A stretch of 64,000 nucleotides of DNA, from contig NZ_CP091139.2 of the NCBI RefSeq assembly GCF_021582895.2, positions 2,666,001 to 2,730,000 of the forward strand, written 5' to 3'. Origin of the DNA: Microbacterium elymi (GTDB lineage Bacteria > Actinomycetota > Actinomycetes > Actinomycetales > Microbacteriaceae). Position 1 is the first letter of the stretch. Every line of letters begins with the position of its first letter. The position numbers and the translations under genes are program-made. Under the pieces are notes generated by a model. The model did not search any database, had not been told where the DNA came from, and saw only the letters and a program-made list of their open reading frames with translations. Shown piece after piece: positions 13,918-32,656 of this stretch.

Positions 13918-14157
13918 ATGAGCATCGATCAGTCCCGTCTCGACGAGTTCCGCAAGACCCTCGAGGCCGACGACTACCACCTGTCGGTCGAACTGCACGA
14001 CCAGTCCGCGGACGTCCGCATCGACGCCGGCCCGGACGCGTGCGCCGAGTGTCTCGTGCCCAAGGACTTCATGCGCCAGATGCTCTCGCCGCTGCTCGGC
14101 GTGGGCGCCGAGCGCATCGACGTCAGCTATCCGGTGGATGTGCACACGGCCGAATGA
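13918..14157 (+). CDS. Small conserved-looking protein with CAEC motif, function unknown
   Basis: 79-aa acidic soluble protein, not recognised with certainty. The core reads DACAECLVPKDFMRQMLSP, with two Cys spaced as C-x2-C, followed by the hydrophobic stretch LLGVGAERIDVSYPVD. Size and the Cys pair recall small NifU-like or electron-carrier proteins, but no homology is claimed. RBS GGGGAGGA precedes the ATG. It has its own IclR-type operator and converges on the SDR gene, so it belongs to the island's regulated set. A carrier or accessory subunit for a neighbouring dehydrogenase is a guess. Confidence 0.7.
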   Translation: MSIDQSRLDEFRKTLEADDYHLSVELHDQSADVRIDAGPDACAECLVPKDFMRQMLSPLLGVGAERIDVSYPVDVHTAE

Positions 14158-15282: not shown

Positions 15283-16450
15283 ATGAGCATGACAACGCGC
15301 GCCGAACAGGGCGCCGCTCGGGCCGAAGAGCCCGGACGAATGACCACACGCGCGGTGGTGTGTCGCGCACCGGGCACCCCGTGGGAGGTCACCGAGCTCG
15401 AGCTGGACGAGCCGCGCGCCAACGAGGTGCGGGTGCGGATCCACGCCGCCGGGCTGTGTCACTCCGACGATCACATCCAGAAGGGCGACGCGCCGATGCG
15501 GATGCCGGTGGTCGGCGGGCACGAGGGCTGCGGCATCGTGGACGCGATCGGCCCGGGCGTGACCCGGGTCAAGGTCGGCGACAAGGTCGTCCTCTCGTTC
15601 ATCCCCGCCTGCGGCAAGTGCCGCTACTGCTCGACCGGGCGGCAGAACCTGTGCGACGAGGGCAAGAACGCCGCGACCGGCGAGTTCGCCGACGGCACGT
15701 TCCGGTTCCATCAGGACGGCGTCGACTTCGGCGGCCTGTGCGTGCTGGGCACGTTCTCGCAGCACACCGTCGTCTCGGAGTACTCGGTCGTCCCGGTCCC
15801 GGACGACCTGCCGTTCGAGGTCGGCGCCGTGATCGGCTTGCGGCGTGCCCACCGGATGGGGATCGGCCGTCCACCTGGCCGGGGTGCGCCCCGGGCAGAC
15901 CGTCGTCATCTTCGGCGCCGGCGGCGTGGGCAGCAACGCCGTGCAGGGCGCGGCCATGGCCGGCGCCGAACGCGTCGTCGTGGTCGACCCGGTCGAGTTC
16001 AAGCGCGACATGGCGAAGGTCTTCGGCGCCACCCACACGTTCGCCACCGCCGAGGAGGCGACGGCATTCGTCATCCAGTCCACCTGGGGCGAGCTGGCCG
16101 ACCACGCCATCATCACCGTCGGGGTGCTGCACGACGAGGTCATCCACGACGCCATCAACATCGTCGGCAAGACCGGGCAGGTCACCGTCACCGCCGTCGG
16201 CAACGGGTGGATCGACGAGAACCCGGGGATGCTGATCGGCTACCAGCGCCGCATCCAGGGCGGGATCTACGGCGGATGCAGTCCGCTCGTGGACATCCCG
16301 CGCCTGATCAGCCTGTACAAGAGCGGCAAGCTCAAGGTCGACGAGCTGATCACCCGCCGATACGCGCTGGACGAGGTCAACCAGGGCTACCAGGACATGT
16401 TGGACGGCCGCAACATCCGCGGCGTCGTCCTCATCGACCACGACGACTGA
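15283..16450 (+). CDS. Mycofactocin-dependent (NDMA-type) zinc alcohol dehydrogenase 1
   Basis: Medium-chain zinc alcohol dehydrogenase of the Rxyl_3153 group (NDMA-dependent), whose members hold NAD tightly and use mycofactocin as electron acceptor. 388 aa restored. Catalytic zinc ligands in GLCHSDDH and GGHEGCG; structural zinc Cys in CGKCRYCSTGRQNLC; nucleotide fold GAGGVGSNAVQGAAMAGA. An extra T in GCTTGC at 15836-15841 breaks it; removal restores the ligand region IGCGVPTGWGSAV. RBS GGGAGAG before ATG 15283. First gene of an ADH-ALDH-ADH-UGSC run. Alcohol substrate unknown. Confidence 0.9.
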
Positions 16451-16479: not shown

Positions 16480-17968
16480 ATGACGATCACCACCCCCGCA
16501 CCGACCCTCTCCGAGGAACTCCTCGTCGACGGCGCCCAGCTGATCGGCGGGCAGTGGGTGCCCTCCGGCACCGGACGCACCATCGACGTGATCAACCCGG
16601 CCAATCGGGCGCTCATCGCCCGCGTCCCGCGCAGCGACGCCGACGACGTGGAGGCCGCCGTCCAGGCGGGCGAACGCGCGTTCCCCGCATGGCGCGACCG
16701 CAACGCCTCCGAGCGGGCCGCCGCGCTGTTCCGCTGGGCCGACCTGATCGAGCAGCATCTCGCCGACCTCGACCAGCTCGAATCGCAGGAGGTCGGCCGT
16801 CCCAGCTGGGGGCCGCCGCCGTATGCCCGCCAGCTGCGGTTCATCGCCGGGCAGGCCGACAAGGTGCAGGGCGTCTCGCTGCCGACGCTGACCCCCGACA
16901 CGCTCGGCTTCACCCTGCGCGAGCCGTACGGCGTCGTGGGCTCGATCATCCCGTGGAACGCGCCCGGGGCGCAGTTCGCGATGGAGGTGGGCTCGGCCAT
17001 CGCGGCCGGCAACACGATCGTCATCAAGCCCGCCGAGGACGCCCCGCTGACCCCGCTCGCGCTGGCCAAGCTCGCCGAGCGGTCCGGCATCCCGGCCGGG
17101 GTGATCAACGTGGTCACCGGGTACGGCGGCGAGGCCGGCGCGGCCCTCCCCGCGCATCCCCGGGTCCGCCGGATCGGGTTCACCGGCTCGCCGCTGACCG
17201 GTCAGCTGGTGATGGAGGCCTGCGCGAAGAACCTCACCCCGCTGCACCTCGAGCTCGGCGGCAAGTCGCCGCAGGTGGTGTTCCCGGACGTGGATCTGGA
17301 TGCCGCGGTGCCCACCATGGTGCTGAGCATCACGCTGAACACCGGCCAGATCTGCGCCGCCGGCTCGCGCATCGTCGTGCTCGCAGCATCCATGACGAAC
17401 TCGTGGAGCGGCTCGCGACCCAGATGCAGAAGGTGACCGTGGGCCCCTGGTACGAGCAGGTGGCGATGGGACCGCTGATCAACGCGAAGCAGGCACGACC
17501 GGGTGCTCGACTACATCGGGGTGGGCCGGCAGGGCGGCGCCGAGGTGGTCACCGGCGGCGGCGTGCCCACCGGCGACGGGTTCGGCGACGGCTTCTTCGT
17601 GCAAGCCGACGCTGTTCGACAACGTCTCGCCGGACATGCGCATCGCCCAGGAGGAGATCTTCGGGCCGGTGCTGTCGGTGATCGCGGTGGACGACGAGCA
17701 CGAGGCGCTCGAGGTCGCCAACGGCACCGACTACGGTCTGGTGGCCTCGGTGTGGACGCGCGACGTCGGCACCGCCGTGCGGATGAGCCGCGGCCTGCAG
17801 GCCGGGCAGGTGGGAGTGAACAGCGTGCTCGGGGCGCCGGTCATCGGCGGCCCGTGGGGCGGCTACAAGAGCAGCGGCTTCGGCCGCACGATGGGCGCCG
17901 ACGCGGTGCTCGAGTGGACCCAGGTCAAGACGGTGTCGCTGGGCGACGCCGCGATCTCGAAGCGATAG
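16480..17968 (+). CDS. NAD-dependent aldehyde dehydrogenase
   Basis: 495 aa restored, about the family length. Oxyanion Asn in IIPWNAPGAQF, NAD site GFTGSPLTGQ, general-base Glu in [11 protein letters not shown] and nucleophile Cys in TGQICAAGSR, all present. It would oxidise the aldehyde made by the flanking dehydrogenases. Three lesions: a base lost near 17388 just after the Cys motif, and insertions in GCAGGC 17489-17494 (restores NAKQHDRVLDY) and GCAAGC 17601-17606 (restores FVQPTLFDN). It lies 29 bp after the first dehydrogenase and 8 bp before the second, clearly one operon. Confidence 0.9.
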
Positions 17969-17976
17969 GGCAGGAC

Positions 17977-19108
17977 ATGGCAACGATCACCACGCGCGCG
18001 GCAGTCGCACACGGACCGCACGAGGGCTGGGAGCTGACCGAGCTCGAAGCTGGACGATCCGAAGGAGCACGAGGTCCGGATCAAGCTGGTCGCCTCCGGC
18101 CTGTGCCACTCCGACCACCACATCACCGAAGGCGACGCCCCGGTGCGGATGCCGGTGGTCGGCGGGCACGAGGGCGCCGGCATCGTGGAGTCGGTGGGAC
18201 CCCACGTCCGCCGGGTCAAGCCCGGCGACCGGGTGGTGCTCTCCTACATCCCCGCCTGCGGCTCGTGCCGGCCGTGCTCCACGGGGCACCAGAACATGTG
18301 CGTGAAGGGTCTGAACGCCGGCACGGGCATGTTCCTGGACGGCACCTACCGGTTCCACAAGGACGACGAGGACTACGGCGGATTCTGCTCGCTGGGCACG
18401 TTCTCGCAGTACCTGGTCGCCTCGGAATGGGCGGTCGTGCCGCTGCCGGACCACATCCCGTTCCGCCTCGCCTCGCTGGTGGGCTGCGGGGTGCCCACCG
18501 GATGGGGCTCGGCGGTGTACGCGGCCGGCGTCCGGGCCGGCGACACCGTGGTCGTCTTCGGCGCCGGGGGCGTGGGCGGCAATGCCGTCCAGGGCGCCCG
18601 GTACGCCGGCGCGAAGGACGTGATCGTCGTCGACCCGGTCGAGTTCAAGCGCGAGCATTCGAAGCTGTTCGGCGCCACCGACACCTTCGCCACGGCGAAG
18701 GAGGCGCACGACTTCGTCGTGTCCACCACGTGGGGACAGCTGGCCGACCACGTCATCATGACGCCGAACGCGGTCACCGAGGAGATGGTCAACGCCGCCG
18801 TGATGATGACCGGCAAGGGCGGCAAGGTCACCATCACCGCGGTGGGCCACCTCACCGAGAAGGCGGTGCACGTGCACGCGGGCATGCTCATCGGCTACCA
18901 GCGGCAGATCCGCGGGGCCCTGTTCGGCGACTGCAACCCGCTGTACGACATCCCGCGGTCGCTGCGCCTGTACGACTCCGGCGACCTGAAGCTCGACGAG
19001 CTCGTCTCCCGCACCTATGCGCTGGATCAGGTGAACGAGGCCTACGACGACCTGGTGGCCGGGCGCAACATCCGCGGGGTGATCATCCACGAACCGGCCC
19101 TGGCCTGA
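17977..19108 (+). CDS. Mycofactocin-dependent (NDMA-type) zinc alcohol dehydrogenase 2
   Basis: Paralogue of the dehydrogenase at 15283; 376 aa restored. Zinc ligands in GLCHSDHH and GGHEGAG, structural zinc in CGSCRPCSTGHQNMC, nucleotide fold GAGGVGGNAVQGARYAGA and the shared VVDPVEFKRE segment. Both keep the group's YRFHKDDEDYGGF/FRFHQDGVDFGGL insertion. One extra A near 18049 breaks the N-terminus. Starts 8 bp after the ALDH stop with RBS AGGACA. Two copies in one operon suggest two alcohol steps, a diol, or differing substrate ranges. Confidence 0.9.
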
Positions 19109-19172: not shown

Positions 19173-19724
19173 ATGTCCCACGCCATCCTGGATCCCACCG
19201 GCCGCGCGGCCGGCACCGCGGCGCCGTCGGCGGCCCCCGTGCTCGCCCCGCGCCCGGCCGACCTGACCGGCCTGCACGTCGGGCTGCTGGACAACACCAA
19301 GCACAACGCGCTGCTGTTCCTCACCGAGCTGGGCAGCTGCCTGGTCCGCGAGTGCGGTGCGGCCGACGTGTCCATCGTCGAGACGAAGAAGAGCTTCTCG
19401 GTGCCGGTGGACGACGAGATCGTCACACGGTACAAGGACGCCTGCGACGTCGTGGTCACCGGGGTCGGCGACTGCGGATCGTGCAGCGCCGCCGCCGTCG
19501 CGGACGGCATCGCGTTCGAACGGGCCGGGCTGCCCGCGGCCGTCGTGCTCACCGACGCGTTCGGCGCCACCGGCCGGACCATGGCGCAGGTGCAGGGCGC
19601 CCCGGACTACGAGTGGATCACCACGCAGCATCCGATGGCCGTGCTCGACCCCGATCAGGTCAAGGAGCGCGCCCGGCGCCTGCTGCCGGAGATCACGCGC
19701 AGCCTCACCGGAGCCGCGGCATGA
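19173..19724 (+). CDS. UGSC-family (seleno)protein, cysteine form
   Basis: 183-aa soluble protein with the redox-looking motif GVGDCGSCSAAAVADG at about residue 105. It matches the UGSC family, where the first Cys is replaced by selenocysteine in some members. It also has GLLDNTKHNALLFL near residue 35 and an ADVSIVETKKSFS segment. Function is not established. ATG 19173 is chosen because GGAG lies 6 bp upstream; ATG 19158 is possible. Its stop overlaps the next gene's start (ATGA), so the two are probably a functional pair within the alcohol dehydrogenase operon. Confidence 0.68.
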   Translation: MSHAILDPTGRAAGTAAPSAAPVLAPRPADLTGLHVGLLDNTKHNALLFLTELGSCLVRECGAADVSIVETKKSFSVPVDDEIVTRYKDACDVVVTGVGDCGSCSAAAVADGIAFERAGLPAAVVLTDAFGATGRTMAQVQGAPDYEWITTQHPMAVLDPDQVKERARRLLPEITRSLTGAAA

Positions 19725-20848
19725 GCGCCGCGGCCCCCGTGGAGGGCGCCGTCGCGACCGATGCTGGCGCCGACCTGGAGCCGGATGCGGATGCCGCGCA
19801 GGCGGCGATCGAGCACTGCTACGCACAGGGATGGAGCGACGGGCTGCCTCTGGTGCCGGCCACCCAGCCCCTGGTCGACCGATTCCTCGCCGCCGGCGGG
19901 CGGGACGCCGACGAGGTGATCGGCCACATGCCGCAGGTCGATCGCACCGTCACCGTCCAGGTGGCCGCGATCAACGCCGCCATGGCCGGCTGCCGGCCGG
20001 AGTACTTCCCCGTCGTCCTCGCCGCCTGGGAGGCACTCATGCGCGAGCGCGCGGCCAAGGGCGGCGGGTGGCAGTCCACGAGCGGCCCGGCGCCGCTGCT
20101 CATCGTGAACGGGCCGATCCGCGAGCAGCTGGGCTTCAACAGCACCGGCGGCGTGTTCGGGCCGGGCTTCCGGCCGAACGCGACGGTGGCCCGGGCGATC
20201 GGCCTGATCGTGCGCAACGCGTTCGGGGTCATCCCGCACGAGCTCGAGCAGGCCACCCAGGGGCTGCCCGGCCGGTGGTCGATCTGCTTCGGCGAGAACG
20301 AGGAGGAGAGCCCGTGGCCGCCGCTGGCCGCCGACCTCGGCGTGTCCGGCGACGCCGTGACCGCCACCCTGCTGCGCACCTGCGAATACGTCGACAACCG
20401 GCACACGAGCGACGCCGAGCAGCTCCTCGGCGATTTCGCCGACACGATCGGCCGCTCCGGGTCGTGGATCTTCCAGCACGCCGGCGTGGGCGTCATCCTC
20501 TGCCCCGAGCACGCCGATCTGCTCGCCGGCGCCGGCTACAGCCGCACCGACGTGCAACGGTGGCTCGCCGAGCACTCCGGCCGGACCACCGCCGCGCTGG
20601 CGCAGGCCGGCAAGGACTTCGCCGAGAACGGCGTCCGGCGACCCGGCGACGCGCAGGACCCGGAGCGATTCCAGCGGACGATCGTCGAGGGGGCCGAGCC
20701 CGGCATCCTGGTCGCGGTCGCCGGATCGCGCACCGCCGGCATCTCGATGGTCGTGCGGCTGTTCGCCGACTGGTCCGGCACCTCGGTGCCGATCGTGCGT
20801 CCCCCCGAGCCGGCCGCCGGCCGGCGAAACCGAAACGAAGGCGAGTAG
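19721..20848 (+). CDS. Conserved protein coupled to the UGSC protein, function unknown
   Basis: 375-aa soluble protein, not recognised as a named enzyme. It begins with an Ala/Asp-rich segment, then HCYAQGWSDGLPLVPATQPLV, a pattern seen in uncharacterised proteins next to UGSC genes. Other blocks are GWQSTSGPAPLLIVNGPI, FGPGFRPNATVARAIGL and FGENEEESPWPPL. There is no signal peptide and no obvious nucleotide or metal site. The 4-bp overlap with the UGSC gene indicates tight coupling, possibly a complex. It ends 2 bp before the next dehydrogenase. Confidence 0.75.
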   Translation: MSAAAPVEGAVATDAGADLEPDADAAQAAIEHCYAQGWSDGLPLVPATQPLVDRFLAAGGRDADEVIGHMPQVDRTVTVQVAAINAAMAGCRPEYFPVVLAAWEALMRERAAKGGGWQSTSGPAPLLIVNGPIREQLGFNSTGGVFGPGFRPNATVARAIGLIVRNAFGVIPHELEQATQGLPGRWSICFGENEEESPWPPLAADLGVSGDAVTATLLRTCEYVDNRHTSDAEQLLGDFADTIGRSGSWIFQHAGVGVILCPEHADLLAGAGYSRTDVQRWLAEHSGRTTAALAQAGKDFAENGVRRPGDAQDPERFQRTIVEGAEPGILVAVAGSRTAGISMVVRLFADWSGTSVPIVRPPEPAAGRRNRNEGE

Positions 20849-20850
20849 AG

Positions 20851-21955
20851 ATGCCCCAGATGGTGCGTGCCGCGGTCCAGACCGGCCCCCGAGCGATTGA
20901 GATGCGCGAGTTCGCGCGCCCTGTGACCGGACCCGACGACGGGCTTGCGGGTGGAGGCCAACGGCATCTGCGGCAGCGACGTGGAGATCTTCCGCGGGCA
21001 CATCGGCATGAACAAGGGCCCCTTCATCCCCGGTCACGAGCCGATGGGCATCATCGAGGAGATCGGCGACCGCGCCGCCGAACGGTGGGGCGTGCAGGTC
21101 GGCGACCGGGTCGCGCTCGAGGTGATCGTCCCGTGCCGGGCGTGCGGGGACTGCCTCACCGGCAACTACCAGGCGTGCCGGTTCCGCAAGTACGGGCACG
21201 GCGTGACCGGGATCGACGTCGAGCCGAGCCTGTGGGGCGGATTCGCCGAGTACCTCTACCTGTCGCCGAACTCGATTCTGCACAAGATCGACAAGACGAT
21301 CCCGGCCGAGATCGCCGCCATGTACAACCCGCTCGGTGCCGGCGTGCGCTGGGCGGTCGACCTCGGCGAGGTCGGACTCGGCGACTCGCTGCTGGTGCTC
21401 GGCGCCGGTCAGCGGGGCCTCGCGGCCCTGATCGCGGCCAAGGCCGCGGGCGCCGGCACCATCATCGTCACCGGCCTGCAGCGCGACGAGCACAAGCTGG
21501 CGGTGGCCCGCGAGCTCGGCGCCGACCACACGCTCGTGGTCGACGCGGACGGCGGACTGGACGTGGTCGCCGCCGTGCAGGAGCTCACCGACGGCCGCGG
21601 CGTGGACGTCGCTCTGGATGTCACCCCGATGGCCGGCCAGCCGATCACCGATGCGCTGCTGTCCACCCGCTTCGGCGGCCGGGTGGTGCTGGCGGGCCTG
21701 AAGGGCCACCGCGAGATCCCGCTGGTCACCGACGTGATCGTCAACCGTGCGCTGACCGTCAAGGGCGCGTTCGGAGTGGACGCCACCGCGAACGAGAAGG
21801 CGATCGCGCTGCTGGAGTCGGGGCGCTTCCCGCTGGAGAAGCTGCACACCCACACCTTCGGCCTGGACCAGGTCGATCTGGCGATCGAGACGCTGGCCGG
21901 CGAGACCGACGATGCCGGCGCCATCCACGTCTCCGTGCACCCGAACCCGGCGTGA
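20851..21955 (+). CDS. Zinc-binding dehydrogenase (threonine/sorbitol dehydrogenase-like MDR)
   Basis: Medium-chain dehydrogenase (367 aa restored) distinct from the two mycofactocin-type enzymes. Catalytic zinc site GICGSDVEIFRGH and GHEPMG, structural zinc CRACGDCLTGNYQAC, nucleotide-binding VLGAGQRGLAALIAAKAAGA. It probably oxidises a secondary alcohol with NAD(P). An extra T in GCTTGC at 20943-20948 breaks residue ~30; removal gives DDGLRVEANGICG. Two bp downstream of the UGSC partner and followed by an amidohydrolase, it continues the same operon. Substrate unknown. Confidence 0.86.
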
Positions 21956-21991: not shown

Positions 21992-23037
21992 GTGATCGTC
22001 GACGCCCACGCACATTTCCTGCCCTCCGGCTATCCGGACGACGCCCCCGCGTGCTTCCCGCACATGGAGCCGATCGACGGCTCTGCGGACCGGCTGCTCG
22101 TGTTCGACAAGATGCGCTTCGCCGCCAAGGAGGTGTTCTTCCAGGCTGAGCGGCGGGTCGAGGCGATGGATGCCGCGGACATCGACGCCGAGGTGATCAG
22201 CCCGATGCCGCCGCTGCTGCGCTACGACCTGCCGCCCGCGGACGGACTGGCCCTGGCCCGGCACGTCAACGACACGGCGGCCGAGCTGGCCGCATACGCG
22301 CCGGAGCGGATCATCCCGCTTGGGATGGTGCCGATGCAGGACCCGGATGCCGCGGCCGACGAGCTGGCCGCGATCCGGCAGCGCGGCCTGGCCGGGGTGG
22401 AGATCGCCTCGAACATCCTGGGCGACTCGATCGGGCACGAGCGGTTCCTCCCGTTCTTCCAGGAGGCGCAGCGGCAGGGGATCTCCGTCTTCGTGCACGC
22501 CATGCCCTCACCGACCGATCGGCTGCCGATGTCGGGGATGGGCACGTACGTGGTGGGCATCGAGGGCGCGTTCGCCGCGGCATCCCTCATCCTCGGCGGC
22601 ACCGCGGCCGCGTGCCCGGACCTGCGCATCTCGTTCAGCCACGCCGCGGGCGGATTCCCGCTGATGCTGCCGCGCGCCAACTATTTCTGGGCGGCAGCTG
22701 GAACGAGGAGCCACGCGATCTGGACCGCGCCGTGATGCCCTCGGACGAGCCGTCGCCGCTGGAGTACGCGCGGCGGTTCTACTACGACGCGATGGTGTTC
22801 GACCGGCGCGCCATCCGCTACCTCATCGACCTGCTGGGAGCCGACCGACTGCTGGTCGGCTCCGACTTCCCGGCGATGCCGCGCGAGGAGCCCGGCGCAC
22901 GGACACTGCGCGAGATGGGGCTGCCGGAGGCGGACTGGGCCGAGATCAGCCACCGGAACGCGTTCCGCTGGCTCGGCCGTCCGGTCCCGGAGGCCGACGC
23001 CGCGCCGGCCCGGGCACGCGTGGACGCACCGGCCTGA
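21992..23037 (+). CDS. Amidohydrolase family 2 (ACMSD-like) metal enzyme
   Basis: TIM-barrel hydrolase or decarboxylase (348 aa restored) of the amidohydrolase_2 family. N-terminal metal motif VDAHAHFLP at residue 3, a His in VFVHAMPS (about 170), FSHAAGGFPLMLPRANY (about 215) and the Asp ligand in VGSDFPAMP (about 290). Members decarboxylate aromatic or aminomuconate acids or hydrolyse lactones. A G lost near 22688 breaks the frame; correction reads YFWGGSWNEEP. GTG start with RBS AAGAGAGG. Last gene of the dehydrogenase operon; the transporter operon begins after an operator. Confidence 0.84.
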
Positions 23038-26870: not shown

Positions 26871-27964
26871 CGCTCCTGCAGGGTACGCCCCGCGAGACCG
26901 CACCCGACCAGACCGAGGCGGTGCTGGTCGTCGACGAGCTGCGGGTCACATTCTCGCGCGCCGGACGCCGGGTGCACGCGGTCAACGGCCTGTCGTACGA
27001 GCTGAAGGCGGGGCGCATGCTCGCGATCATCGGCGAGTCCGGCTCGGGCAAGTCGGTGAGCGTGCGGGCGCTGATGGGCCTGCTGCCCCGAGCGCCACGG
27101 TGACCGGGTCGGCGCGGCTCGGCGGCACCGAGCTGGTCGGCCTGCCGGAGGCCGACATGCGCCGGATGCGCGGCGACGACATCGCCATGGTGTTCCAGGA
27201 CCCGACCCGGTCGCTGAACCCGACGATGAGCGTCGGCGCACAGATCGTGGAGGCGGTCCGGACGAAGACCGCCGTGGACCGCAAGGCCGCCGCGGAGCGC
27301 GCGGTCGAACTGCTGAAGCTGGTGCGGATGCCGGCGCCCGAGCGCCGATTCCACGAATACCCGCACCAGCTGTCCGGCGGCATGCGCCAGCGGGTGATGA
27401 TCGCGATCGCCCTCGCATCCAATCCGAAGGTGCTCATCGCCGACGAGGCGACGACCGCATTGGATGTCACCACCCAGGCCCAGATCATGGAGCTGCTGAT
27501 CGACCTGCAGCAGCGGCTCGGCACCGCGGTGGTCATGATCAGCCACGATCTGGGACTCGCGGCAAGCTATGCCGACGAGGTGCTCGTGATGTACGCGGGG
27601 CGGGCCGTCGAGCACGCCGCGACCGACCTGCTGTTCCAGAACGTGCGGATGCCGTACACGAAGGCCCTGCTGGGGGCGATCCCGCAGCTGACCACCCGGC
27701 CGCACTCGCTGCTGACCGTGATCGGCGGCCATCCGCCGGACCTCGGGGCGCTGCCCACCGGCTTGCGCGTTCCGGCCGCGCTGCCCGCGTGCCACCGACG
27801 CGTGCGCGGTCCGGCCCGAGCTGGAGGAGCACGAGCCGGCGCACAGCTACGCCTGCTGGCATCCGGTGGGGCTCGACGACGCGGACGAGGGCGGACGGGA
27901 TGCCGCGGGGGACGCCGAAGCGCCGGGCGAGACATCGGACGACACGAGGGGAGACCAGGCGTGA
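26867..27964 (+). CDS. ABC transporter ATP-binding protein (DppD type)
   Basis: 365 aa restored. Walker A GESGSGKS (about residue 55), Q-loop MVFQDPTRSLNP, signature LSGGMRQRV, Walker B VLIADEATTALD, H-loop SHDLG, and the oligopeptide-type C-terminal Cys cluster GCAFRPRCPRATDAC. Two lesions: a C lost near 27095 (restores MGLLPPSATVTG) and an extra T in GCTTGC at 27761-27766 within the Cys cluster. The acidic C-terminal tail is unusual but unremarkable. Confidence 0.91.
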
Positions 27965-29076
27965 GCACCGCACCGGGCAGGCCGGGCGAGGTCGAGACGG
28001 GCAGGGACGACGACGTCCTGCTGCAGGTCCGGAACCTCGTCCAGGAATACGTGAGCCGAGGGCCGGGCGGTGCCAAGGCCGGGGTCGTGCACGCCGTCTC
28101 GGACGTGTCGTTCGACCTGCGCGCCGGGCGGACGCTGGGCATCGTCGGCGAGACCGGATCCGGCAAATCCACCCTCGCCCGGGCCGTCATCCGGGTGGAG
28201 AAGCCGAAGTCGGGGGAGGTGCGCTTCCGCGGGCGCGAGCTCGGCGGGCTGTCCGCGCGCGAGCTGCGGAAGGTGCACGCCGACATCCAGATGGTGTATC
28301 AGGACCCGTTCGGCTCGCTGAACCCGCGGTGGCGGGTGGAGGATGTCGTCGCCGAGCCCCTGCTCGGGCACTCGCGGATGTCGCGGGAGCGGCGGCGGGC
28401 CCGCGTGCGCGAGCTGCTCGACCTGGTCGGGCTCGAACCCGACGTCTACCTGCGCCGGCGCCCGTACGAGCTGTCCGGCGGGCAGGCCCAGCGTGTGGCG
28501 ATCGCCCGCGCGGTCGCGCTGAACCCGGCCCTGATCATCTGCGACGAGGCGATCTCGTCGCTGGACGTGCTGATCCAGGCGCAGGTGCTGAATCTGTTCG
28601 AGAAGCTGCGGGCCGAGCTGGGACTGTCGTACGTGTTCATCGCACACGACCTGGCCACCGTGCGGCAGGTCAGCGACCAGGTCGCGGTCATGCACCTGGG
28701 CAAGCTGGCCGAGATCGGCCCCGCCGAGGAGCTGTATCGCGCACCGCGACATCCCTACACCAGAGCACTGCTGGACTCGATCCCGGGACTCGACCCGGTG
28801 ACCGGCATCGCCCGGCGGCCGGTGCCGCTGGCGGGCGAGCCGCCGTCGCCGCTGGCGCCGCCCAGCGGATGCCGCTTCCGCACGCGCTGCCCGCGTGCGC
28901 AGGAGCGATGCGCGGCCGAGACCCCGGTGCTGACCGAGCACGGTCCCGGACACCTCACCGCCTGCCACTACCCGCTCGACGAGCCGGTGGTCGCCACTCC
29001 CGATTCGCTGCGCTCGCGGGTGCGCGCCACCGGTCCGGCGCCCGAGCCGGCCCTGACCTCCCCGCCCGCCCGCTGA
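27961..29076 (+). CDS. ABC transporter ATP-binding protein (DppF type)
   Basis: Intact 371-aa ATPase. Walker A GETGSGKS, MVYQDPFGSLNPRW, signature LSGGQAQRV, Walker B LIICDEAISSLD, HDLATV and C-terminal GCRFRTRCPRAQERC. Pairs with the DppD-type ATPase to energise import. GTG start overlaps the upstream TGA. It ends the importer operon and converges on mftD, with a palindromic element between them. Confidence 0.92.
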   Translation: MSTAPGRPGEVETGRDDDVLLQVRNLVQEYVSRGPGGAKAGVVHAVSDVSFDLRAGRTLGIVGETGSGKSTLARAVIRVEKPKSGEVRFRGRELGGLSARELRKVHADIQMVYQDPFGSLNPRWRVEDVVAEPLLGHSRMSRERRRARVRELLDLVGLEPDVYLRRRPYELSGGQAQRVAIARAVALNPALIICDEAISSLDVLIQAQVLNLFEKLRAELGLSYVFIAHDLATVRQVSDQVAVMHLGKLAEIGPAEELYRAPRHPYTRALLDSIPGLDPVTGIARRPVPLAGEPPSPLAPPSGCRFRTRCPRAQERCAAETPVLTEHGPGHLTACHYPLDEPVVATPDSLRSRVRATGPAPEPALTSPPAR

Positions 29077-29184
29077 CCCCGTCGCCGCCCCCGCGCGCGC
29101 CCACCCATCCGGACCCACCCATCCGGACCCACCCCCTCGCCCGTCCCGACACCCCGGCACCTCGGCCGCCCGGCCGCGAGATCT

Positions 29185-29244
29185 GTGAGTCGTCAGTAGT
29201 GGTCGGAATTTTCGCGATCTATCCGACCACTGCTGACGAGTCAC
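29185..29244. repeat. 23-bp inverted repeat (REP-like palindrome, family B)
   Basis: Arms 29185-29207 and 29222-29244 match at 21 of 23 positions around a 14-base centre. It lies between the convergent importer and mft operons, a likely bidirectional terminator. The right arm overlaps the last codons of mftD, so the element seems to have been placed at, or grown into, the gene's 3' end. Confidence 0.8.
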
Positions 29245-30442
29245 GGGCAGGGAGAGCACGCCCGGGGACCGCGGCGCCGAGGCGGCGGCGGAAATCGGCC
29301 GGGATCCACAGGTCGTCGCGGCACAGCTCATCCAGGCGGGCGCGTGCCATGCCGTACATGGCCGAGTCGAGTCCGCCGCGCAGGATGTCGAGGACGTTCT
29401 CGACGCCGGCCTGCCCGTTCGCCGCCAGCCCCCACAGGTAGGCGCGGCCGATGAGCACGGCCCTGGCGCCCAGGGCGAGCGCCTTCGCGACGTCGCTGCC
29501 GCGGCGGATGCCGCCGTCCAGCAGCACCTCGAGCTGGTCGCCGACCGCGTCCGCGATGTCCGGCAGGACCGGATCGAGGCGGGGGTGGAGTCGAGGTTGT
29601 TGCCGCCGTGGTTTGACACCGAGATCGCGCTCATCCCGACATCCACCGCGCGGCGCGCGTCGTCCAGCCGGCTGATGCCCTTGAGCATCATCGGGCCGTC
29701 CCACTGCGCGCGCAGCCAGGCCAGGTCGTCCCAGGTGGGCGGGGGCGTGGTCATCCATTCGCCGTACGCACCGAAGAACGTGGGGGCCGCCTCGTCGCCG
29801 ACGACGAGGTTCGGGGTGGTCAGGTCGGGGATGCCGCGCCGGACGAACCGGTAGGCCCAACCGGGTCGGGTGATGGCCGCGGGGACGTACCCGACCAGCG
29901 TCTTCAGCGAGATGCGCTCGGGGATCTGCGGGTTGCCCAGTCGCGACCGTTGGAGAACGACCAGTCCAGGGTCACGATGACGGCGCGGGCACCGGCCGCG
30001 CGGGCGCGGTCCAGCCGTTTCGCGATGGTGTCGCGACCGCCCTGCCAGTACACACTGGTAGTGTAGCGGGGCGCCGGCGGCGGCCACCTCTTCGACGGGC
30101 TTGCTGGCGAACGAGCTGAGCGACATGGCGATGCCGCGGGCCGCGGCCGCGCGGGCCACGGCGACCTCGCCGTCCGGGTGCACGGCCTGCACACCGGTCG
30201 GGCTGATGACCACCGGGAAGGACTGCTCCACCCCGAGGACGGTCGTGGACAGGTCGCGCTCCGCCGGCATCCCGGCCACGTGCGGGGACAGGCCTAGCTC
30301 GCTGAATGCGGCCATGTTGTCGGCGTAGGTCACGCCCTTCTCGGACCCGGCCAGCAGCGCTCCGTACACCGACGCCGGCAGGCGCTTGCGCGCGCGCCGC
30401 TTGCGCCTCGGCGACCGTCTCGAACCAGGCGTTGCGCGCCAT
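29219..30442 (-). CDS. mftD: Mycofactocin maturation oxidoreductase MftD
   Basis: FMN-dependent alpha-hydroxyacid dehydrogenase-family enzyme (407 aa restored) that oxidatively deaminates the cleaved Val-Tyr core to premycofactocin. N-terminus [44 protein letters not shown] with the catalytic His, and [23 protein letters not shown]-binding. Lesions: GCTTGC 30399-30404 (restores EAQRRARKRL), one extra base near 30050, single G losses near 29936 and 29565. Starts 2 bp before the mftC stop region; last gene of mftABCD. Confidence 0.87.
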
Positions 30443-30443
30443 C

Positions 30444-31700
30444 TCAGCGGTCTCCGTCGGGGCCGGCCGCGAGCCCCGCGGCGAACTCGGCTACCGGGCT
30501 CGTGTTGCACGCCGAGACCGGGGGCGCCGCGGGCCGCCGCTGGAGCAGTGTCAGGGGCACCGCGGCCCGCGGGCGCGGGGGAGAGGTGCGGTGCGATCGG
30601 TCCACGCTCGGCTTGGGGCGCTGGTGCTCGGCCTGGGCGAGCGCCTCCTCGCCGAAGCCGCGCACGCACTCCGGGTCCGGGCCGTCCAGCGGCAGGCCGG
30701 TGAAGAACTTGGCCGCCATGCAGCCGCCCTTGCAGGTGTCGAAGAACTGGCAGGCTTGCAGGCGCCGCCGGACTGCGGCGAGCGCAACCGGGCGAACAGC
30801 TCGGATTCGCGCCACACCTGGGCGAAGCCGCCGTCGCGGATGGAGCCGGCGAGGAACTCCTCGTGGATCGCGAACGGGCAGGCGTACACGTCGCCGATCG
30901 GGTCGATCAGGCACACCACCCGGCCGGCGCCGCACAGGTTCAGCCCGGGAAGGGTCCCGCCCAGGGCGGACAGGTGGAAGAACGAGTCGCCCGTGAGCAC
31001 GTCGTCCCCGTGCGCGAGCAGCCAGTCGAACAGCTCACGCTGCTGGTCCTGCGTCGGGTGCAGCTCGTTCCAGACGTCGGCGCCGCGCCCCGCCGGTCGC
31101 AGTCGGGTGAGGCGCAGCTGCGCGCCGAACCGATCCGCGATGGCCTTGAACTCGTCCAGCTGGCCGATGTTGGTGCGGGTGCACACGACCGAGAGCTTGA
31201 GCCGGGTCATCCCGGCCGAGGAGAGCCGCTCCAGCGCCCGCATCGCGAGGTCGAAGGACCCCGGACCGCGGATCGCGTCGTTCACCTCGGCGGTGGCACC
31301 GTCCAGCGAGATCTGGATGTCGACATAGTCGTTCTGCGCCAGCCGGACCGCGATCTCGTCGGTGATGCGCACGCCGTTCGTGGAGAACTTCACCCCGACG
31401 TCGTGCGCGGTGGCGTAGTCGACGATCTCCCAGAAGTCGCTTGCGGACGGTCGGCTCGCCGCCGCCGATATTCACGTAGAACACCTTCATCCGCTCGAGC
31501 TCGTCGATCACCGCCTTGCACTCGTCGGTGGTCAGCTCGCGCGGATCGCGCCGGCCGGACGCCGACAGGCAGTGCACGCACGACAGGTTGCACGCGTAGG
31601 TCAGCTCCCAGGTCAGGCAGATCGGAGAGTTCAGCCCCGACTCGAAGTGGTCGACGAGCCGCTTCGGACGGGTCGGGGGTGCGGGGGCGATGAGGGTCAT
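30444..31700 (-). CDS. mftC: Radical SAM mycofactocin maturase MftC
   Basis: Radical SAM/SPASM enzyme that decarboxylates and cross-links the C-terminal Val-Tyr of MftA. 418 aa restored, with a long Pro/Arg-rich tail past residue 370. 4Fe-4S motif CNLSCVHC at about residue 32, SAM motif GGGEPTV, STNGVRI, and SPASM Cys segments CGAGRVVCLIDPIGDVYACPF and CKACQFFDTCKGGC. Lesions: GCTTGC 31439-31444 (restores EPTVRSDFWEI) and a base lost near 30756 in the SPASM region. ATG overlaps the mftB stop. Confidence 0.92.
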
Positions 31701-31971
31701 GCGGCCTTCTCCACGAGCATGTCGGACGCGCGGAGGGTCTCCAATGCGCGCAGGTACAGCGGGAACTCGTCCTCGGGGACGCCGGCGGCGGCGAGGGCGT
31801 CGGCGACGGTGGATGCCTCGGCCACCCCCGCGACGACGCTCAGCAGCTGGGCGATTTCAGGAACGACAGCTGCCGGGTGCCGAAGTGATACAGCAGCGCG
31901 CCGAACGGCTCGGGCCGGATCGACACGCGCGGGTGCAGGCGCAGCGTGCTGCGCAGCGTGAGCTCGGACAT
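31697..31971 (-). CDS. mftB: Mycofactocin precursor-binding protein MftB
   Basis: 91-aa (restored) PqqD-like RiPP recognition element that presents MftA to MftC. Sequence blocks LHPRVSIRPEPFGALLYHF and LSFLKSPQLLSVVAGV are characteristic. A C lost from a C run near 31858 truncates the frame at SPSC; correction carries it to KAA and a TGA overlapping the mftC ATG. Begins 9 bp after mftA, so it is translated with the precursor gene. Confidence 0.9.
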
Positions 31972-31979
31972 CGGACGGC

Positions 31980-32078
31980 TCAGTAGACGCCGCACATGCC
32001 GTCGATCGACACCTCTTCGACCAGCGATTCCGTCTCGACCTCGGCGGCGGTGCTCTCGGGTGCGGTGGTGTTCTCCAT
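31980..32078 (-). CDS. mftA: Mycofactocin precursor peptide MftA
   Basis: 32-aa precursor with an acidic leader rich in Thr, Glu and Ala and the diagnostic C-terminus EEVSIDGMCGVY; the final Val-Tyr becomes the cofactor. Too short for routine ORF calling but unmistakable. RBS GAGGAAGAGG precedes ATG 32078. First gene of mftABCD, with an MftR palindrome 55 bp upstream. Confidence 0.96.
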   Translation of the reverse strand: MENTTAPESTAAEVETESLVEEVSIDGMCGVY

Positions 32079-32132
32079 GGCCTCTTCCTCTCTGAAGCGG
32101 ATGCCGCGTCCTCGCGGTGGCAGTGAGCTTAC

Positions 32133-32147
32133 TGGCATCGAGTGCCA
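32133..32147. promoter_or_regulatory. MftR operator, copy 2
   Basis: TGGCATCGAGTGCCA, identical to the site between mftE and mftR. On the mftA strand TAAGCT follows at -10 distance and TTTTCA lies 17 bp further up, so the palindrome fills the promoter spacer, as for a repressor. Confidence 0.8.
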
Positions 32148-32183
32148 ATGAAAAGGGCCATTCCCATTTCAGGCGGCCTGAGA

Positions 32184-32477
32184 TCAGAAATCCACCGGAT
32201 CGAACCGGCGCAGACCGGGGCGGGCGGCGATCATCTCGGCCAGCTCGGGGACCGCGCCCTCTGCGCCGCGGAACGCCCGGTAGGCGAGTTCGGACTCGGC
32301 ATCGGCCCACTGCTCGTAGAGCGTCCAGACCGTCGGATCCTCGCGGTCCTGCAGCCATTCGATCCGCTCCGCGCCGGGGAAGGCGCGGGTCTGGGCGAGC
32401 ATCCGGTCGAACACCTCCCGCGCCGCGTCGGCGCGCTCGGGCACGATCCGGAATTCCACGAGCGCCATGATCGGCAT
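32184..32477 (-). CDS. Antibiotic biosynthesis monooxygenase (ABM) domain protein
   Basis: 97-aa ferredoxin-like alpha+beta barrel protein: MALVEFRIVPERADAAREVF at the start, then RIEWLQDREDPTVWTLYEQW and a C-terminal RPGLRRFDPVDF. Family members are cofactor-free monooxygenases or quinone/aldehyde-handling proteins; the role here is unknown. ATG 32477 is preferred because GAGGAGG lies 5-6 bp before it; ATG 32468 is internal. Divergent from IclR 2 with an operator between, so probably part of the IclR regulon. Confidence 0.82.
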   Translation of the reverse strand: MPIMALVEFRIVPERADAAREVFDRMLAQTRAFPGAERIEWLQDREDPTVWTLYEQWADAESELAYRAFRGAEGAVPELAEMIAARPGLRRFDPVDF

Positions 32478-32556
32478 TCCCGCCTCCTCTGCTCTCGCCG
32501 GGCCCGCGCCCGGTCGAGGGCAGGCTATTGGCGGCCCCGGCGCCGAACATCCGATA

Positions 32557-32571
32557 TTCCGCCGGGCGGAA
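32557..32571. promoter_or_regulatory. IclR-type operator, perfect palindrome
   Basis: TTCCGCCGGGCGGAA, a perfect 7+1+7 palindrome, in the divergent promoter region of the ABM gene and IclR 2. It is the best copy of the motif found at 13770, 13831, 23046 and 33567. Confidence 0.75.
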
Positions 32572-32656
32572 GCCGCGCACATCGCGCGTGCACCCGCGTT
32601 ACTGTCGGCGCAGCGGGCGGCGCTGCTGTCGGCGGGGACGGGCAGGAGGACCGACG

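Follow-up and report, generated by a model that had tools for sequence, protein, structure and literature searches.

A cysteine-form UGSC protein and its adjacent partner near mycofactocin genes of Microbacterium elymi: close pairing and a distant resemblance to selenoprotein B

Introduction

The UGSC family (PF24696, NF041046) is listed among bioinformatically predicted selenoproteins and is described, in the available portions of two reports, without a function and with fusions to an unnamed domain, Unknown_1 (PMC2398784, PMC13188914), the first of them calling the family likely thioredoxin-like. Across the one library searched, the accessible text on UGSC offers no function, no homology to GrdB and no name beyond Unknown_1 for an accompanying protein, and UGSC and mycofactocin never appear together there. 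The closest described systems are selenoprotein B of the reductases for glycine, betaine, sarcosine and D-proline (GrdB/PrdB, PF07355) and the operons of mycofactocin-type, NDMA-dependent alcohol dehydrogenases (ADHs; TIGR03989). For GrdB-type proteins nucleophilic attack of selenocysteine (Sec) on a substrate carbon has been proposed, including attack on the C–F bond of fluoroacetate (PMC10838667), and in glycine reduction NADPH supplies the electrons, which thioredoxin reductase and thioredoxin hand on to GrdA/GrdB (PMC3091704). Here, we analysed a stretch of 64,000 nucleotides from Microbacterium elymi (NZ_CP091139.2, positions 2,666,001 to 2,730,000), further referred to as the window, in which a sequence-only reading had placed a UGSC-type protein and a coupled partner, both taken as uncharacterised, inside a mycofactocin dehydrogenase operon and had suggested thiol redox chemistry for the cysteine pair of the former, possibly acting on a reactive aldehyde or thioester from the dehydrogenases.

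Results

The coupled reading frames are present as that reading described them, with ATGA common to both and an overlap of 4 bp (Table 1). The product of the first one passes the curated cut-offs of both family models, scoring 149.2 bits against NF041046 (cut-off 125) and 209.1 bits against PF24696 (cut-off 25), and carries the [UC]GSC motif as CGSC within VGDCGSCSAA, which makes it a UGSC-family member with cysteine at the position where the selenoproteins of this family have Sec. The partner gave nothing above chance in Pfam or NCBIfam, and a Pfam search with the alignment of 63 partner rows returned scattered weak rows only (best E 0.0042). Residues conserved in the partner are D40-G41-L42-P43, A89-G90-C91, N130-G131-P132 and R151/R158. 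The label “uncharacterised” thus holds for both proteins in the sense that no function is assigned and that the partner falls into no family, but UGSC itself is a named selenoprotein family. Both frames are intact, unlike several flanking genes split between frames: at 10–37 kb of the window the two ADHs, the aldehyde dehydrogenase (ALDH), the MDR gene and MftC are all frame-split. Taken together with the rating of the source genome (one contig, 68% complete), such splitting of long genes points to likely indel errors in the assembly, so that other apparent pseudogenes of this interval should be distrusted as well.

Table 1. Features of the window around the UGSC/partner pair (positions counted from the first letter of the window; aa, amino acids).
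Feature	Coordinates	Strand	Details
Small CxxC protein	13918..14157	+	79 aa; related to the NifU-like family beside UGSC/partner pairs
NDMA-dependent alcohol dehydrogenase 1	15340..16450	+	TIGR03989, both pieces; two frames
Aldehyde dehydrogenase (ALDH)	16480..17968	+	frame-split in this assembly
NDMA-dependent alcohol dehydrogenase 2	17977..19108	+	TIGR03989 positions 54-370 in 18143-19105; two frames
UGSC-family protein, Cys form	19173..19724	+	183 aa; Cys101-Gly-Ser-Cys104; NF041046, PF24696
Partner protein	19721..20848	+	375 aa; outside all Pfam and NCBIfam families; shares 4 bp with UGSC
Zinc-type MDR dehydrogenase	20851..21955	+	top NCBIfam row L-threonine 3-dehydrogenase, below cut-off; two frames
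Amidohydrolase-2 family protein	21992..23037	+	two frames; relatives in 11 loci, window included
MftD match	29566..30402	-	profile positions 12-291 of 385; frame 27847-30666
MftC, mycofactocin radical SAM maturase	30645..31652	-	in pieces
MftB match, mycofactocin chaperone	31846..31953	-	profile positions 3-38 of 85; frame 31840-32577

The source genome contains three UGSC genes and three partner genes arranged as three adjacent pairs. Contigs scanned with these three partners yielded 565 confirmed loci, the best 80 of which served as the locus sample: a UGSC gene is found in 73 of the 80, on the strand of the nearest partner in all 73 and no more than 400 bp from the partner in 64 of the 80, UGSC coming first in 52 loci and the partner in 21. 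It was not found in the fetched stretch of the remaining seven (L032, L047, L056, L067, L069, L075 and L078), the stretch of L047 running to the end of its contig. Since these loci had been chosen by the partner, genome surveys were run as well. The first survey took in 197 genomes from the class to which the window belongs: UGSC was detected in 11 of them (the window's own included) and the partner in 12, both being present in every UGSC genome and the twelfth partner match being a 24-bit fragment; within eight stretches taken from seven of the 11 genomes, the two genes lie within 400 bp of each other in seven and about 5.8 kb apart in one. The second survey, covering 95 genomes from the phylum of locus L072 (Candidatus Rokuibacteriota), detected UGSC in 72 and the partner in 71, with both in 71, UGSC alone in one and the partner alone in none; up to 12 UGSC matches occur per genome, and the copy numbers of the two families correlate over the 72 genomes with r 0.93. 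Divergence is mirrored too, as 61 UGSC/partner pairs gave r 0.89 against 0.21 for the best of 2000 permutations, although part of this correlation comes from the common descent of the genomes. The pair extends to other phyla and to haloarchaea, and UGSC was detected in 11 of the 13 plasmid loci picked by hand from 24 records with the partner and not in the other two. Natural fusions of UGSC with the partner are present in L076, L082 (with the variant CGTS), L149 and L151, and the partner family is likely the domain formerly listed as Unknown_1. Pairing of UGSC with the partner is therefore close to obligate, and the adjacency in the window, recurring in three pairs of its own genome and across genomes and phyla, is not a chance arrangement. 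The earlier claim of a coupled pair, which was staked on genomic co-occurrence, is borne out by the partner being present in 11 of 11 and 71 of 72 UGSC genomes.

Two or more partner genes accompany a single UGSC in L054, L064, L068, L074, L077 and L147. On a haloarchaeal plasmid (L147:7001-9630) the order is partner–UGSC–partner, and four partner genes stand in tandem on a Nitrospinota contig (L054:1917-6119); both arrangements suggest heteromeric complexes.

The first position of the motif was read in 79 UGSC rows, comprising the window's and 78 of 89 domain hits; weakness, incomplete length or an unreadable motif led to the removal of the other 11, of which four had TGA and one TGC. It is encoded by TGA in 43 rows and by TAG in four and is cysteine in 32. 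Outside the window's subfamily most relatives have a selenocysteine codon here, and the distribution of the cysteine forms over the tree, the window's included, takes two changes or more to explain. In the source genome no tRNA-Sec above the cut-off was detected, the top row being tRNA-Ser. All four TAG-form genomes are Geodermatophilaceae (L035, L039, L040 and L043, with L132-L135), and in every one of them a tRNA-Sec-like gene with the anticodon CUA exceeds the Rfam cut-off and is labelled by ARAGORN as tRNA-Pyl; some bacteria of this kind are reported to read UAG as Sec. G. ruber (L035/L018) and G. sabuli (L039/L017) each combine a UAG form with a Cys form. The tRNA search also covered four genomes whose UGSC is of the UGA form: tRNA-Sec with the anticodon UCA was recovered in three, and the fourth, the draft genome of L036, gave no tRNA-Sec above the cut-off.

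In the genomes of the second phylum (G336 and G338-G431), where UGSC matches reach 12 per genome, every UGSC match among the matches listed has an in-frame TGA, which makes this a very large uncharacterised expansion of selenoproteins. On plasmid pFER4 of Paracoccus ferrooxidans (L142) genes annotated as selB, cysteine desulfurase, TusA-family and DsrE are found within about 5 kb around the pair, and UGSC is annotated there as two hypothetical ORFs, split at the in-frame TGA (6702).

For comparison with selenoprotein B, GrdB/PrdB-type sequences with TGA read through were taken from 18 of 20 GRDB loci, L093 and L105 being excluded as partial. Profile alignment with hhalign covered 91 columns and gave a score of 44.3 at E 1.6e-5, with a probability of 79 that stays short of 95; in it Sec falls on Cys101, and the pattern E-[RK]-x-G-[IL]-P comes after this position. 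Four full-length GrdB sequences taken separately scored 36.2 (probability 48) and the 14 short ones 31.2 (probability 25), compared with at most 23.3 for 27 unrelated families, at most 15.6 for 60 column shuffles and 14.9 for the reversed alignment. GrdB-type segments cut at the Pfam bounds, that is before Sec, gave nothing against UGSC (E 0.28–0.37), and when 48 UGSC rows were searched against Pfam up to E 10, PF07355 was absent from the 23 families that any of them matched. Judged by these alignments, whose support is moderate and not decisive, UGSC appears to be distantly homologous to the catalytic, Sec/Cys-bearing C-terminal part of GrdB/PrdB; the long N-terminal domain of GrdB is absent from it. 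Pfam GRDB matches in L089-L092 and L094-L108 stop just before the Sec codon, which leaves the catalytic residue uncovered. The phylum sample is also rich in short UxxC proteins whose match is confined to the C-terminal half of the GRDB model.

The partner showed no profile similarity to GrdB or to class I fumarase. Nor does it resemble GrdE: against four PF09338 proteins (L109-L112), the comparison made for a pyruvoyl-forming partner, it reached E 0.53 and a score of 14.7, so that, judged by GrdE, the pyruvoyl step of glycine and proline reductases appears to have no counterpart here. Near six short GRDB-like loci (L113-L118) and the same four full GrdB loci no partner gene was found below E 1.

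The predicted structure of UGSC (pLDDT 93.6, pTM 0.86) has five strands alternating with five helices, the third of which opens with the CxxC, an arrangement that, as predicted, would argue against the thioredoxin-like fold suggested for the family. Foldseek returned no row for it at E 0.001 or better, and VIA gave Rossmann- and receiver-like rows with Z 8–11, folds so widespread that they suggest no particular function. The partner model (pLDDT 91.5, pTM 0.89) likewise had no Foldseek row against PDB at E 0.001 or better, the best being class I fumarase (E 1.8e-3, TM 0.23), and its best VIA row had Z 5.5 over 91 residues; as modelled, the partner would be without a usable PDB neighbour, which by itself does not prove a new fold. 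Sequence searches of PDB with UGSC, the partner and one GrdB brought weak rows only (best E 0.027). An alignment of UGSC and partner led by one natural fusion was dropped from interface modelling, its UGSC rows being only 10–17% identical to that fusion and apparently misaligned.

Thioredoxin reductase genes (E 1e-25 or better) accompany seven of the best 80 of 565 loci, where 0.4–6.7 kb separate them from whichever UGSC or partner gene is closest, and represent six distinct genes, because L020 and L029 overlap on one contig and share one. About 0.4 such loci are expected from the density of 48 genes per 164 Mb in 40 genomes of the class, and the ratio of observed to expected is rough since a single-protein control from one class is set against a three-sequence profile and loci across phyla. 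Six of the 13 hand-picked plasmid loci contain such genes too, among them an Arthrobacter locus with the order trxB-trxA-partner-UGSC and a Roseovarius locus with partner-UGSC-trxB; the two thioredoxin-reductase-like matches of the source genome are both far from the window. Thioredoxin reductase genes hence stand near the pair more often than by chance and, together with the Sec codons of relatives, lend support to the thiol or selenol redox chemistry supposed for the cysteine pair.

As to the mycofactocin context, the ALDH gene sits between the two TIGR03989 ADHs, all upstream of the pair, and matches to MftB, MftC and MftD follow about 9–11 kb downstream on the minus strand (29.6–32.0 kb), so that the mycofactocin context is genuine and the assignment of the pair to a mycofactocin-type dehydrogenase operon is supported. 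Within the 197 class genomes MftC exceeds its cut-off in nine of the 11 UGSC genomes versus 50 of the 186 others (Fisher p 4e-4, own genome counted, a value that ignores kinship, three of the 11 genomes being of one genus), and in genome G211 it lies about 1.3 kb from UGSC. Two of the 11 have no MftC above the cut-off. The MDR dehydrogenases (cluster 5) account for 44 rows, which come from the window and from 19 loci of the sample of 80 (the best of 565; L020 and L029 overlap on one contig), and 27 of the 35 rows scanned, from which the window's, short and very long rows are omitted, match TIGR03989 below 1e-100; most of the 80 loci are without such an ADH. The survey against mft genes that had been called for thus shows association within the class, but the pair is found beyond it as well, in other phyla and haloarchaea. 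This partial co-occurrence means that the mycofactocin link is a trait of the window's subfamily and not of the UGSC family as a whole.

Some UGSC/partner loci include a small third protein. Its family, to which the 79-aa protein of the window belongs, has an invariant CxxC, and besides the window and the own-genome locus L008, 19 of the best 80 of 565 loci contain a member. Four of 21 family rows match PF01106 (NifU; best E 3.8e-8), and the window's row matches no family, PF01106 included.

Discussion

From the close pairing, the Sec/Cys exchange at codon level, the profile similarity to GrdB/PrdB, the thioredoxin reductase genes at some loci and the mft context, all observed directly, we infer a scheme for catalysis, its direction, the substrate and the roles of the subunits. 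UGSC and its partner may be read, tentatively and with nearly even confidence, as a two-subunit selenol/thiol reductase of GrdB/PrdB-like kind working without a pyruvoyl partner. UGSC would be a small Rossmann-like domain offering a nucleophilic selenol (a thiol in the window) and the resolving Cys104, and the partner would bind and activate the substrate. Cys101 would then attack an activated carbon or another electrophilic atom of a small catabolic intermediate, Cys104 would resolve the adduct to a disulfide (a selenenylsulfide in relatives), and thioredoxin, or perhaps the small CxxC protein in the window, would reduce it. Likeness to GrdB/PrdB concerns two levels, the Sec/Cys-bearing part, which aligns, and the thioredoxin system near some UGSC loci. 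Neighbouring genes vary too widely between loci to indicate a substrate; in the window it is probably an intermediate that the NDMA-dependent ADHs and the ALDH generate or use up. Aconitase X, dihydroxyacid dehydratase, CoA transferases, CaiB-like and luciferase-like proteins were considered as fixed pathway partners and rejected, each being present in a minority of loci.

The redox cysteine pair and the thioredoxin reductase neighbours of some loci would suit a protective pair resembling thiol peroxidases or repair systems, which clears peroxides or reactive carbonyls arising in catabolism instead of performing a pathway step, and peroxidase activity of GrdB is named in the title of a reference listed in PMC3091704. 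We consider this unlikely, as up to 12 UGSC matches per genome in many catabolic contexts speak rather for substrate-specific enzymes and, in our judgement, a near-obligate partner of 375 aa is unusual for a peroxidase.

Less likely still is an accessory role in Fe-S or metal handling, in which the partner or neighbouring Fe-S dehydratases would have a cluster supplied or mended by UGSC together with the NifU-like protein. It draws on the NifU-like protein occurring in 19 of the best 80 of 565 loci and two own-genome loci and forming a C-terminal extension of UGSC, as a fusion, in L050, L058, L066 and L141, on other pairs having a gene for dihydroxyacid dehydratase (8 loci) or aconitase X (4 loci) close by, and on class I fumarase topping the Foldseek rows of the partner. 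Yet the partner alignment has only two nearly invariant cysteines, the fumarase rows reach TM 0.23 or less without profile similarity, the best VIA row has Z 5.5 over 91 residues, and 61 of the best 80 of 565 loci have no NifU-like gene in the fetched stretch. Comparably improbable is a thiol carrier, in line with the sequence-only reading, that catches the aldehyde as hemithioacetal or thioester and hands it between dehydrogenases, for despite ADH and ALDH standing directly upstream of the pair in the window and NDMA-dependent ADHs recurring among the scanned MDR rows, 61 of those 80 loci have no ADH of cluster 5 and the pair reaches other phyla and haloarchaea.

Returning to the reductase reading, the near-constant partner, the resemblance to the GrdB/PrdB end and the thioredoxin reductase neighbours turn UGSC into a concrete, testable enzyme hypothesis. 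Its widest form is doubtful to us: a new class of Se/S-nucleophile reductases, in which a minimal cousin of the GrdB/PrdB domain is fed by thioredoxin or NifU-like proteins, a substrate-binding protein of no known family replaces the pyruvoyl subunit, substrate-specific paralogues, up to 12 UGSC matches per genome, are spread over the catabolism of bacteria and haloarchaea, and one cysteine branch is tied to mycofactocin. That branch has a practical side, as the Cys form in a mycofactocin operon is a version expressible without selenium and has close relatives in named strains, the partner of Microbacterium salsuginis (L009) being 89% identical to that of the window.
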